Shown here in pieces: positions 6,063-10,066 of a DNA stretch of 62,759 nucleotides. How positions within the stretch are numbered: position 1 is the first letter of the stretch; every line of letters begins with the position of its first letter. The position numbers and the translations under genes were made by a program. The stretch comes from an uncultured Myxococcales bacterium (GTDB lineage: Bacteria; Myxococcota_A; Polyangia; Polyangiales; Polyangiaceae): NCBI GenBank assembly GCA_937902985.1, contig CALFNG010000456.1:1-62759 (forward strand), given 5' to 3'. The notes beneath the pieces are model-generated. The model saw only the letters and a list, made by a program, of their open reading frames with translations, was not told where the DNA came from and searched no databases.

Positions 6063-6983
6063 TCAAGGGCACGACGCCGACGCCGCCGTCCGCGCTGCGC
6101 CGACGATGAAGTAACCGAGCTGCGTGACGGACCCCTGCTCGAATCCTGCGTTCGTGTAGGAATCGGGCACTCGCGTGAAGCAGGTCCCGTCGGGCGAGAA
6201 CCAGATCGCGAGGCCCGCCGCAATAGTGACCGAAGGGCCGCTCTGAGGTGAAGGGAGAGGACCGCTTCCCCAGGGGAGCTGAATCGGGGTGCGAGCCGCC
6301 AGGGTGAGTCCGGCTGGCTCGACCAGATAGACCGGCGACCAGTCGAGCAGGTCTTGCGGCGGCGCGATCGCGGTCTCGATCAACTTGAGAGCGGTGGGCG
6401 TCCCGATCGCCGTGGCCGGAAACGCGAGCTGCGCCGCGACGCCGCTCGCCACTCCCTGACGACCTTGCAGACTGACGGTTCCTCCGCTCGCTCCTATCGT
6501 CGCCGAGCTGTACTCGCCGATTCCCGCGGGGCACTGGAACGAGTTGCCGGCGCCTGGCCGGCGCGTGCACCCGCACGACACGGCGGCCTCCGCATCCACT
6601 GAAGGTCCCGCGTCTGCGTCCGTGTCGAAGGGCGGTCCTGCGTCTGCGCCCGTGACGGGTGGGCCCGCGTCGCCCACCGAGCAGAGACCGCCGACGCCGC
6701 CGTCGAGGTAGATGACCATCTCCGGGCTCGGGGCCACGTCGGCAGTCTCCGCGGCGTCGACGCTCATGGCGTCAGGCCCGCCTTCGGGTTGGGAAACGAC
6801 CGCGACGCCGGAGTCGGACACCGGACACGTGGTCCCTGCGGGCACGCAAAGCTCCGCGGTCCCCCCGCAGCACGTCCACTGGGAGGCGCACGGACAGGGG
6901 TGGCCTCGCTCGGCGACCGCGCCCGTGCAGGCGATCGCGGCCATTTGAAAGCCAAGAGTGAGGGCGACAAGGGGCTTGTTCAT
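6063..6983 (-). CDS. ZU5-like domain lipoprotein
   Basis: The 306-residue product starts with a lipoprotein signal (QMAAIAC) and a Cys-rich segment (CPCASQWTCCGGTAELC) resembling short myxobacterial disulfide modules. A long Asp/Ala/Pro-rich linker follows. Residues of about 185-265 match a ZU5-like beta domain: IGASGGTVSLQG, LAFPATAIGTP, SPVYLVEPAGLTLAARTPI. This domain recurs in Polyangia lipoproteins and probably mediates interactions at the cell surface. Its start lies 38 bases beyond the stop of the caspase-like gene on the same strand, so it may be the last gene of that operon. The frame is open to 7067, but the ATG at 6983 directly precedes the signal peptide. Confidence 0.75.
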   Translation of the reverse strand: MNKPLVALTLGFQMAAIACTGAVAERGHPCPCASQWTCCGGTAELCVPAGTTCPVSDSGVAVVSQPEGGPDAMSVDAAETADVAPSPEMVIYLDGGVGGLCSVGDAGPPVTGADAGPPFDTDADAGPSVDAEAAVSCGCTRRPGAGNSFQCPAGIGEYSSATIGASGGTVSLQGRQGVASGVAAQLAFPATAIGTPTALKLIETAIAPPQDLLDWSPVYLVEPAGLTLAARTPIQLPWGSGPLPSPQSGPSVTIAAGLAIWFSPDGTCFTRVPDSYTNAGFEQGSVTQLGYFIVGAARTAASASCP

Positions 6984-7020
6984 GCCTGGATAACGAACGG
7001 CGACCGGTACGTTGGACGGA

Positions 7021-8604
7021 TCAAAATGCGCCGCCGTAGCCGACGTACCCGCCGGACCGCAGGACACTGGCCTGCAGACGCGGCGCGTCGGGCCAGAGTA
7101 GCAGGGTGACGCCGGTCGCCATGGCGAGCCCGCCGGCGAGAAAACTCACGAGGGCGCCGGTGTCGAGCGCCGAGATGCGATCGTTGCGACGAGCGACGTC
7201 GGCCTGCGATTCCTGGCGCGAAGAGCCGCCCGCCACCGTGGCCGCAGAGATCGACAGCGCGATCCCCACGCCGGCCCCGACCGTTCCAAGGCCGACGCCG
7301 CTCCAGGCCAGAGCACGTCTCGCGTTGCGCGCCGCCGGAACCGGCGGGGCGAGATCGAGTCGCGACATCCCCGGAGGCGGAGGGCCCGCCTCGGGTGCCG
7401 CGGGCTCGACGTAGGTCGCGACGACGTCGCGGTCGAACGGCAGCGAGAAGAGGAGACCGAACGCCTCGTGCGCCGCCCCGCGAGCGGCCACCCGCGCCGG
7501 GCCACCTTCGAGATCGGCGAGCGACTCGACATCCGGTGAAGGCGCGAGGACGTACTCGGTGTCGTCACCGGCTCGCCGTACGTAGATCGGTCCGTCCGGC
7601 GAAGGTCGGACGAGGTGCACCGCCTGGCCGCTTCCGTTGTGCACGTCGAGCAGCCGCACTCCGCGCGAGTCCTCGAGCCAGTAGTGCGCGGCGTGCGCAC
7701 CATCGATGTCAAGCCGCCGTTCGAGCCCGTGACGCAGGTCGAGCAGTGTGTCCGATTCTCGCGGTGCACGCGCGAGCACCTGCGGCCGGAACCGGTCGTT
7801 GGGAATGGCGCCGTTCGCCCGGCCGATGAACGCTGCGATTTCCCGGTAGCTCACGCGGCCGTCGCCGTCGGCGTCGGCGGCCCCGTAGAGGCCGGAGCGC
7901 ACCTCGTGGCTGAAGACGCCCGCTTGAAATCCGTCCCACTCGTGACTCTCACGGGCCGAGGACGTCGACAGGAGGAGCCCAACCCGCGGATCGCTCGCGA
8001 GCTGAGACGAGTCTTGAAAGCCGCTCAGCGGCCGCCGCTCGCCTCCCGGCCCCCGACTGTAAGCGAGGTAGTACGAAGCGCATGCGTCGACGATGATGTG
8101 CACCCGCGTCGCCGGAATGCTCGCCACGATCCGGGCGAGATCCCCGCCCGTGATGCGCATGTCCTCCAGCGTGACGTAGCCCTCTCCGTCACGGACGTTC
8201 CCGTGGCCCGCGTAGACGATGTAAAGGACGGTATCCACTTGCCGGTCGCGCGCCCGCGTCACGTCGGCGGTGATCTGTGCGACCGCCTGCCCGAGGGCCG
8301 CGCGCCGTGGCTCGAGGGCCTCGGCCGCGGCCTGAGCGTGCAGTCGCCGCGTGTTGTCGTCGAGGCGTGAAAGCAAATAGGTGCGAGCGCCGAGGACGCG
8401 GAAGAGATCGAGGTAGCTCGCCGCGTCGTCATCAGCGTACTTGAGCGGCGGCAAATCCGGGTCCACAGACAGGTTCGAGCCGATGATCAGCGCGAAGGTC
8501 GCTGCCTTGCCGCCGTCGTCGGCTCGCGCGTCCAGCGCGAAGACGAGCGCGAACGCCACCAGCAAAGCCGCAACGGCTCGAGCGCCAGCCCGGGGAGACG
8601 TCAC
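7021..8604 (-). CDS. Caspase-like (peptidase C14) protein with EF-hand and two C-terminal membrane segments
   Basis: A 527-residue cysteine protease of the caspase/metacaspase clan. A signal peptide (residues 10-28) leads into the p20-like domain: ATFALIIGSN strand, the catalytic His in YAGHGN (H134) and the catalytic Cys in IIVDACASYY (C175). Residues 244-255 (DADGDGRVSYRE) form a textbook 12-residue EF-hand loop with Asp at positions 1, 3 and 5, Gly at 6 and Glu at 12, suggesting calcium control. Residues of about 305-400 form a beta domain; two hydrophobic helices at about 431-453 and 482-504 should anchor the protein. Its GTG start overlaps the stop of the anti-sigma-like gene (GTGA), so it belongs to the sigma-factor operon. 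The natural substrate is unknown. Confidence 0.85.
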   Translation of the reverse strand: MTSPRAGARAVAALLVAFALVFALDARADDGGKAATFALIIGSNLSVDPDLPPLKYADDDAASYLDLFRVLGARTYLLSRLDDNTRRLHAQAAAEALEPRRAALGQAVAQITADVTRARDRQVDTVLYIVYAGHGNVRDGEGYVTLEDMRITGGDLARIVASIPATRVHIIVDACASYYLAYSRGPGGERRPLSGFQDSSQLASDPRVGLLLSTSSARESHEWDGFQAGVFSHEVRSGLYGAADADGDGRVSYREIAAFIGRANGAIPNDRFRPQVLARAPRESDTLLDLRHGLERRLDIDGAHAAHYWLEDSRGVRLLDVHNGSGQAVHLVRPSPDGPIYVRRAGDDTEYVLAPSPDVESLADLEGGPARVAARGAAHEAFGLLFSLPFDRDVVATYVEPAAPEAGPPPPGMSRLDLAPPVPAARNARRALAWSGVGLGTVGAGVGIALSISAATVAGGSSRQESQADVARRNDRISALDTGALVSFLAGGLAMATGVTLLLWPDAPRLQASVLRSGGYVGYGGAF

Positions 8605-9350
8605 GGGGTCACCGCAAGTGTGAGCGAGGTCTCGACGGCCCCGGGAAGGGGAAGCGCGCCCTGCGGATTTCGACGCACGAGCGCCTCGATCTGCCGAACC
8701 GAGATGGGCTCGTCCACGAACACGCTGCGGATCTCCAGCCGCTCTCCGTCGAACCGCTGGAGCACCGCCTCCGGCAACTCGTGCCGCTTGTCGTCGAGCT
8801 CGATGGGGATCGCGACCGGGTCGTCGGCCTCGCGCGTCCAGGCCGGGTGAAACCAGTAGACGTGCGCGTGCTCGTCGACCCCGAAGACGGCGAGCCTGCG
8901 CTTTGCAGCACCGTTCTCGTAGGCAAACGCGAGCTCGTCGCCGTTCTGCAGCACACTTCCGGCCGGCGCGGGAGGCGATCCGCTATGGACGTCGTAGACG
9001 AATACGCGGCACGCGCGCGGCGAGAGCGCTCCGATGTTCCCTCGCGACGAGAACCCGTCTGCGGCCGGGTGAACCCGCAACAGCAAGGCGGCCGCCGCGG
9101 CCGCGGCCGTCACCACGCCCAGGCGCATGGCCACGACCTTGGGACGCGTCCGCAAGCCGAGCCCGCGGGCGATCCGCTCGTCGGGGGACAAGGCCTTCGG
9201 GTCGAGGCGGCCCAGCAGCAGGTGACGTCGATAGAGGTCTCGACAGGAGTCGCACGCGGGCACGTGCTCCCGCATCGATCGCTCGGCCTCGGGCGAAATC
9301 GTTCCCGCGAAATGCCGATCGACCTGGACGCGCATGGTGCAGTCGTTCAT
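8601..9350 (-). CDS. Anti-sigma-like zinc-finger membrane protein with DUF4384-like region
   Basis: A 249-residue protein. The first 40 residues hold an anti-sigma zinc finger (zf-HC2 type): C4, then H29, C33 and C36 in REHVPACDSC. A hydrophobic segment (LGVVTAAAAAAALLLRV, about residues 78-94) forms a single membrane span. The C-terminal part (ELAFAYENGAAKRRLAVFGV, HVYWFHPAWT) resembles the DUF4384-type beta domain found beside caspase-like proteins. It is expected to bind the co-encoded sigma factor in the cytoplasm and sense a signal outside. The ATG at 9350 overlaps the sigma-factor stop (ATGA), and its own stop overlaps the caspase start, so all three are tightly coupled. The longer frame upstream merely overlaps the sigma gene. 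Confidence 0.82.
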   Translation of the reverse strand: MNDCTMRVQVDRHFAGTISPEAERSMREHVPACDSCRDLYRRHLLLGRLDPKALSPDERIARGLGLRTRPKVVAMRLGVVTAAAAAAALLLRVHPAADGFSSRGNIGALSPRACRVFVYDVHSGSPPAPAGSVLQNGDELAFAYENGAAKRRLAVFGVDEHAHVYWFHPAWTREADDPVAIPIELDDKRHELPEAVLQRFDGERLEIRSVFVDEPISVRQIEALVRRNPQGALPLPGAVETSLTLAVTP

Positions 9351-10066
9351 GGGTGCTCCGCCCGAAGCAGGAATTGAGTGAGCAGTCTTCGAATTCGAAG
9401 TTCTCGATAGACGAGGGTCGTCCGGTGAACGCCGAGCTCCTTCGCCGCCTCTCGCTGCGTGACCTGCCGGAGAAAGCGTGCGTCGAAGACTCCCGCCCAC
9501 TCGGGCGGGAGGAAGTCGCGGCGGAACCGTTCCACGAGGACCTTGGCGTCCAGCGCGTCGTCGACGCGCCGGGCCGCGGCTCGAGCATCCACCTCCGTCT
9601 CGCACGCCTCGGAGAATGCGGTTTGCTCCCGGCGGTATCGACGCAGGTGATCGATCGCGCTGTGGGTCGCGACGCGGGTGATCCACGCGGGGAAGTTGCC
9701 GCCCTGGAAGTTCGCTCGCAGCTCGGCGTCGGAAATGAGGCGGTAGAAGACTTCATGCGTCACGGTCTCGCTGTCTGCCGTGGAGAGCATCCGGCCGACC
9801 GCGGTGGCCACCGTCCTGTAGTGATCGCGGTAGCATTGCCCCACCGCCGCGCGGTCTCCCGCGTGGAAGGCCAGGAGCCAGCGCTCCCCCATCAAAGGGC
9901 TCCAGGTGACTCGCGCATCTCCCACGTCTTCGCCCTGTTCTGAAAGGGGCTCCTCCTCAACGAGCGGCTGCCGTTGAATGGACGAAGGAAAGCGATCGAG
10001 GGGCGCCGTGCCGTGAGGCTCCGCCCGCGACGCGCTCTCCTCCACCTGCGTCGACGGCGCTTTCAC
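9347..10066 (-). CDS. RNA polymerase sigma factor, ECF type
   Basis: The product has 239 residues. After a 55-residue unstructured acidic extension come sigma region 2 (HEVFYRLISDAELRANFQG, AWITRVATHSAIDHLRRYRR) and region 4 (LPPEWAGVFDARFL, then the helix-turn-helix REAAKELGVHRTTLVYRELR). There is no region 3, as expected for ECF factors. It should direct polymerase to a specific regulon, probably including this operon, and be held inactive by the zinc-finger protein encoded next. The GTG at 10066 is used; an internal start is possible because the first 55 residues are poorly conserved in character. Upstream, 10067-10234 is non-coding and should contain the operon promoter, but no confident -35/-10 pair was seen. 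Confidence 0.85.
   Translation of the reverse strand: MKAPSTQVEESASRAEPHGTAPLDRFPSSIQRQPLVEEEPLSEQGEDVGDARVTWSPLMGERWLLAFHAGDRAAVGQCYRDHYRTVATAVGRMLSTADSETVTHEVFYRLISDAELRANFQGGNFPAWITRVATHSAIDHLRRYRREQTAFSEACETEVDARAAARRVDDALDAKVLVERFRRDFLPPEWAGVFDARFLRQVTQREAAKELGVHRTTLVYRELRIRRLLTQFLLRAEHP

Follow-up and report, generated by a model that had tools for sequence, protein, structure and literature searches.

A sigma factor, anti-sigma factor, caspase and lipoprotein module of Myxococcota as a candidate protease-controlled envelope switch

A four-gene module and its conservation

We examined a 62,759-nucleotide stretch of DNA (hereafter the window; contig CALFNG010000456.1 of assembly GCA_937902985.1, positions 1 to 62,759) from an uncultured Myxococcales bacterium of the Polyangiaceae. 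The window carries a four-gene module (6063..9892 with the corrected sigma factor start; this and all features below lie on the minus strand) that encodes an extracytoplasmic function (ECF) sigma factor, a zf-HC2 membrane anti-sigma factor, a periplasmic caspase (C14-like) and a lipoprotein. We propose that the module is an ECF sigma switch in which the periplasmic caspase would act as the first-cut (site-1) protease, a reading of the sequence data to which we give a probability of about 0.6.

The minus strand carries all four open reading frames as a first-pass annotation described them, and the 4-base overlaps that it reported are exact: ATGA at 9347-9350 joins the sigma and anti-sigma genes, and GTGA at 8601-8604 joins the anti-sigma and caspase genes. 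These overlaps speak against transcription of the caspase gene from its own promoter only, an arrangement the annotation had considered. The lipoprotein gene follows the caspase gene after a gap, as annotated, but of 37 bases (6984-7020, from the caspase stop to the ATG at 6983) and not 38.

The sigma factor gene (9347..9892) is probably shorter than first annotated. The GTG at 10066 is probably the wrong start and the ATG at 9892 the likely one, giving a protein of 181 residues, because the promoter at 9959-9986 (see below) would fall inside the longer frame and because homologues start near 9892, around residue 59 of the longer window protein. The protein matches Sigma70_r2 (PF04542, E 6e-8, over the Pfam cut-off), PF04545 weakly (E 0.023) and TIGR02937, the sigma70-ECF superfamily profile (50 bits against a cut-off of 42.9), and thereby combines Sigma70 regions 2 and 4, the superfamily profile and no region 3, as expected of an ECF sigma factor.

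The anti-sigma gene (8601..9350) encodes a protein with zf-HC2 at its N-terminus, a single membrane helix and a periplasmic beta domain. The zinc-finger motif H29-x3-C33-x2-C36 (9243..9266) can be read directly, and H-x3-C-x2-C recurs in most relatives; the zf-HC2 profile matches 30 of 36 family members and the window protein itself weakly (E 0.009, below the cut-off), and DUF4384 matches 16 of the 36. The membrane helix is predicted by hydropathy at residues 72-93 (9072..9137), with helix 79-93 in the structure model. The finger, the membrane helix and the position of the gene directly after the sigma gene mark a zinc-binding anti-sigma (ZAS)-type protein, whose binding and inhibition of the sigma factor are predicted. 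The AlphaFold2 model has a mean predicted local distance difference test score (pLDDT) of 87.8, and PDB matches to the periplasmic domain reach E 6e-3 at best, so that its fold is left unassigned.

The caspase gene (7021..8604) encodes a caspase-like protease with a signal peptide and a clan CD fold, which aligns over about residues 33-291 with Z-scores of 15.7-18.6 (VIA-align), among them 17.6 for Arabidopsis metacaspases, 15.8 for MALT1 and 18.6 for legumain. With this fold and the His134/Cys175 dyad the protein classes with C14, and PF00656 (Peptidase_C14) matches 32 of 38 aligned family members. Across 158 caspases, H134, D173, C175, E222, D244 and E255 are invariant, and D248 is present in 150. 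Residues D244-A-D-G-D-G-R-V-S-Y-R-E255 (7840..7875) form an EF-hand-like loop, indicated by column conservation and EF-hand profile matches, with D244, D246, D248 and E255 as its acidic residues. A C-terminal helical hairpin (residues 423-503, 7096..7338), modelled as helices 423-459 and 467-503 and hydrophobic by inspection, is likely a membrane anchor.

The first-pass annotation had suggested looking for the same gene order in related genomes, and there it is kept. Caspases were gathered from 98 same-family genomes, from the class, from the phylum and from a set of named GTDB genomes (among them Myxococcus, Archangium, Hyalangium, Pyxidicoccus, Corallococcus and Minicystis), in locus sets that overlap somewhat. 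Sigma and anti-sigma genes both lie within 4.5 kb of the caspase gene at 112 of the 118 loci with enough flank (28/29, 33/33 and 51/56 by set), so the arrangement is not a product of chance; since the loci were found by profiles built from module caspases, 112/118 describes the module caspase family and not all C14 proteins. Three gene orders occur, sigma-anti-sigma-caspase, caspase-lipoprotein-sigma-anti-sigma and, in Corallococcus, a divergent arrangement, and the 4-base overlap recurs at 78 sigma/anti-sigma and 82 anti-sigma/caspase junctions. The four genes are one real module. The linkage itself is not new, because sigma-70 genes were noted in metacaspase operons of myxobacteria by a 2012 survey (Asplund-Samuelsson et al.; PMC3501461). 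The genome from which the window comes holds at least three further sigma/anti-sigma/caspase modules (L042, L053 and L054, on contigs C522, C299 and C513).

Invariant basic residues in segments predicted to be flexible

In the 158 caspases just two alignment columns are basic without exception. The first, R184 (86 Arg, 72 Lys), stands at exactly +9 from the catalytic Cys in 154 of 158 proteins, and we propose R184/G185 (8050..8055) as the self-processing site between the p20 and p10 parts. In the model it lies 11 residues after strand beta-4; in caspases the processing point is about 14 residues past that strand (PMC4357240). None of 14 C14 proteins outside the module in related genomes has a basic residue at +9. 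The second column, R375 (84 Arg, 74 Lys), is followed by Gly in 151 of 158 proteins, and R375/G376 (7477..7482) is a second proposed self-processing site, before the C-terminal part; residues 371-380 have a pLDDT of 66, against 97 and 86 in the flanking blocks. Metacaspases cut themselves and their substrates after Arg or Lys, often with calcium (PMC4357240; PMC9622860). Conserved D60 and D173 together with the invariantly basic candidate self-sites predict that the module caspase, too, cleaves with a basic residue at P1.

A third such position is found in the anti-sigma factor, where R103/G104 (9039..9044) is the proposed first cut site. The R103 column is basic in 149 of 149 anti-sigma factors (75 Lys, 74 Arg) and is followed by Gly in 127 and Ser in 17 (144 in total). 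It lies at a median distance of 15 residues past the membrane helix, on the outer side, in a predicted flexible linker, and is the sole fully basic column of a region whose mean pairwise identity is 23%; residues 97-106, which contain R103, are the only anti-sigma segment of three or more residues with a pLDDT below 50. Variable linker lengths can let an alignment make columns 103 and 375 look invariant, and we therefore counted [KR][GS] steps in a fixed window after the helix: 141 of 149 anti-sigma factors have one near the membrane, and 500 shuffles give 95 at most. Over-long proteins were left out of the conservation scoring. The [KR]G step in the anti-sigma factor and in the caspase linker was noticed in the first set of loci and predicted before the other families were fetched, and it held in those and in the GTDB set; site 184 was not part of that prediction and surfaced in the column scan of the 158 caspases.

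R103, R184 and R375 all fall in low-confidence segments of the models. A position in a flexible segment that takes Lys or Arg freely and no other residue looks like the P1 residue of a basic-specific protease. Within a clade the contexts of the sites are alike (TRVK↓G and TRIK↓G; YSR↓G and FTAR↓G, the arrow marking the putative cut), and the anti-sigma sites of the R-clade mostly read [FWL]-x-[AP]-R↓[GS]. The latter resemble the cleavage consensus of MALT1, LxP/SR↓G (PMC4659944), a lead and not evidence of kinship.

Several side observations concern the same proteins. The anti-sigma factors of six loci (L039, L040, L047, L048, L049 and L072) have lost the H-x3-C-x2-C motif and kept the basic residue at the R103 position. 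In K-clade caspases (L065:5983-7569 and others among L051-L073) the C-terminal part resembles an outer-membrane beta-barrel and not a helical hairpin, with PF13505 (OMP_b-brl) matching 6 of 38 caspases; a barrel-tethered caspase would be a notable architecture. Caspase residues 392-527 (window 7021-7430) comprise the hairpin and a terminal strand ending in Phe, a unit common to dozens of otherwise unlike proteins of related genomes, with F527 invariant among the close caspase family; it seems to be an anchoring domain specific to the lineage. Fusion of DUF4384 to caspases was considered as a sign of direct contact and set aside, with none found in six control caspases. PADLOC gave no anti-phage defence match for the caspase or the anti-sigma factor, and a tblastn search for plasmid copies gave no match.

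A local promoter and the lipoprotein gene

An exact match to an ECF-type promoter, TTCGTCCA-N16-CGTT, lies before the sigma gene (9959..9986), and strict copies stand upstream of the sigma gene at 17 loci of the window's subclade. The window's own 8.3 Mb genome has one exact copy, and twelve relatives have 1-4 each. Most relatives examined have a second copy some 3 kb further along, 1-22 bases past the caspase stop and before the lipoprotein gene; a metagenome-assembled genome with two tandem lipoproteins (L143) has a third. At the corresponding place the window has a degenerate promoter, TCCGTCCA-N17-CGTT (6992..7020), with exact or near-exact copies in relatives. One-mismatch matches in the genome show no excess (21, against 25 for a reversed-pattern control), and for this reason we do not claim a wider regulon. 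Since the copies are essentially local, the sigma factor appears from the sequence to act mainly on its own locus, with weaker promoters elsewhere possible. The further modules of the same genome are probably under different promoters, because TTCGTCCA-N16-CGTT is found at the window locus only.

The lipoprotein gene (6063..6983) encodes a Cys-rich protein with a lipobox ending in Cys19 and then PCPC...WTCC...C, a motif shared with relatives. The ZU5 domain of the first-pass annotation found no match in Pfam, in which the window protein hit no family at E up to 1 and six related lipoproteins had no ZU5; nor does Pfam support the suggested tie to PIDD. The lipoprotein is part of the module in the window's subclade, as had been supposed, because relatives carry the same promoter before its gene; it may be the surface component that the annotation had in mind. 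Downstream lipoproteins (L135:5933-8566, L153:5930-8587 and that of the window) have the same Cys-rich N-terminus and a swapped remainder, which is fn3/FG-GAP in Myxococcus, bacterial Ig in Archangium and without a recognised domain in the window. Caspase-first loci (L053, L058, L066, L068, L071 and L096-L113) have a different lipoprotein between the caspase and sigma genes, one in which WCGD-x-LC-x-W and PTWH motifs are conserved and Cys-rich repeats follow. A lipoprotein partner is a recurring part of the module.

The proposed switch, its rivals and its meaning

The module, its topology signals, the basic sites and the promoter are read from sequence, and fold and disorder are predicted; we infer each cleavage, the protease that makes it, the order of the cuts and the signal. 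At rest, the zinc-finger anti-sigma factor would tether the sigma factor to the inner membrane. A signal would activate the exported caspase, possibly with a requirement for calcium binding, and the caspase would process itself between p20 and p10 at R184, detach its own C-terminal region at R375, and then cut the anti-sigma factor at R103, just outside the membrane. The remainder of the anti-sigma factor would be cut by intramembrane proteolysis, for which a general M50 site-2 protease is the natural candidate (the genome has seven M50 matches), and the freed sigma factor would transcribe its own operon and the adjacent lipoprotein gene, giving positive feedback. The first-pass annotation had already put forward a sigma switch under protease control, with the caspase acting on the anti-sigma factor, and the phylum-wide linkage, the shared periplasmic location and the three invariantly basic sites lend this idea strong indirect support; the cell-fate role that it added is not supported.

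Several observations weigh against this reading. The window caspase, with His134 and Cys175 in place, has no Pfam C14 match of its own, and a few caspase loci have no sigma or anti-sigma genes nearby. A [KR]G step within 40 residues of the membrane also occurs in 4 of the 10 control anti-sigma factors, a small set. The identity of the basic residue is concordant across the three sites in 130 of 141 complete sets (65 RRR, 65 KKK), with tiny Fisher values, yet this covariation mostly reflects a single split between clades and is not significant in pairs tests on the tree, so we do not rely on it as independent evidence. Some Corallococcus-type caspases that lack the C-terminal anchor retain the R375 site, and a cut there therefore cannot always mean release from the membrane.

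The main rival, which we consider unlikely though better placed than the others, makes the caspase an output: another basic-specific periplasmic protease would cut the anti-sigma factor and activate the caspase zymogen, the sigma factor would raise caspase and lipoprotein levels, and the caspase would act on other envelope targets. Encoding the caspase in the sigma factor's own operon is expected of an output too, and a different Arg/Lys-specific protease could read all three sites. However, two of the three sites lie within the caspase itself, one of them at the classic self-processing position of a protein with an invariant dyad, and the basic residue at +9 is specific to module caspases. 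Negative feedback, in which the sigma-induced caspase would degrade or trim the pathway to end its activity, for instance by removing the periplasmic sensor domain once the pathway is active, fits a caspase in an autoregulated operon, but a cut at R103 would leave the sigma-binding zinc finger on a membrane stub, by analogy the usual activating step of regulated intramembrane proteolysis (RIP) and not a shut-off, and we regard it as improbable. Least probable of all is that the basic residues serve structure or topology (as membrane-proximal charge or as domain caps) and the linkage reflects some other partnership, such as scaffolding by a caspase fold: the [KR]G steps of the control anti-sigma factors and the conserved segment after R375 in R-clade caspases are in keeping with this, but the excess over the shuffle maximum (95/149), the low pLDDT at all three sites and the free swapping of Lys and Arg with no other residue allowed argue against it.

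The caspase switch can be set beside several known systems. Sigma-70/metacaspase operons were listed in Myxococcus xanthus DK1622, Anaeromyxobacter, Haliangium, Sorangium, Ralstonia and Fibrobacter, and the myxobacterial ones are very likely the same loci; as far as the part of that survey used here goes, it treats operon content and possible autolysis, to which we add anti-sigma topology, basic sites, promoter, lipoprotein and mechanism (PMC3501461). We found no earlier report of the cleavage-site evidence or the local promoter in the openly searchable literature, most subscription papers lying outside the search. ECF sigma factors released by RIP (RseA/DegS type; RsiV and RsiP with signal peptidase) likewise have a membrane anti-sigma factor with an exported part, an expected two-step cut and a sigma factor that drives its own operon. 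PDZ serine proteases are among the site-1 proteases of such pathways. Signal peptidase is another (PMC8844934), whereas the site-1 protease proposed for the module is a caspase-fold cysteine protease from the same operon. The ECF54 group also has a caspase-superfamily protease, in the form of CHAT-domain proteins, near an ECF sigma factor (PMC8999054), but in modules of the window type the neighbour is always a membrane anti-sigma factor. Metacaspases and the paracaspase MALT1 (C14) share the clan CD fold, the His/Cys dyad and the proposed basic P1, and the module caspase differs from them in being exported and sigma/anti-sigma-linked and in its EF-hand-like loop and C-terminal hairpin or barrel. 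MALT1 caspase-Ig3 chains rank first in Foldseek; VIA did not extend this lead to the Ig3 part of a MALT1 architecture (caspase plus Ig3), its alignments to MALT1 spanning only about residues 31-291 and legumain scoring higher.

The role of bacterial caspase homologues is a long-standing question to which most proposals have answered cell death. The module offers a concrete alternative, with one enzyme, one regulatory substrate, a predicted first-cut site and named residues. We see about even odds that the caspases of this family are trigger proteases of envelope sigma switches and not death enzymes, periplasmic zymogens with two self-cut sites whose specificity is shared with the anti-sigma site, in a self-contained positive-feedback circuit of sigma factor, anti-sigma factor, caspase and surface lipoprotein that extends across Myxococcota, with the sites of one clade similar to human MALT1 sites. 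If so, caspases would join the set of proteases by which envelope sigma pathways are opened, and bacteria would have a caspase-controlled transcription whose logic is comparable to that of MALT1 cutting NF-kappaB regulators.
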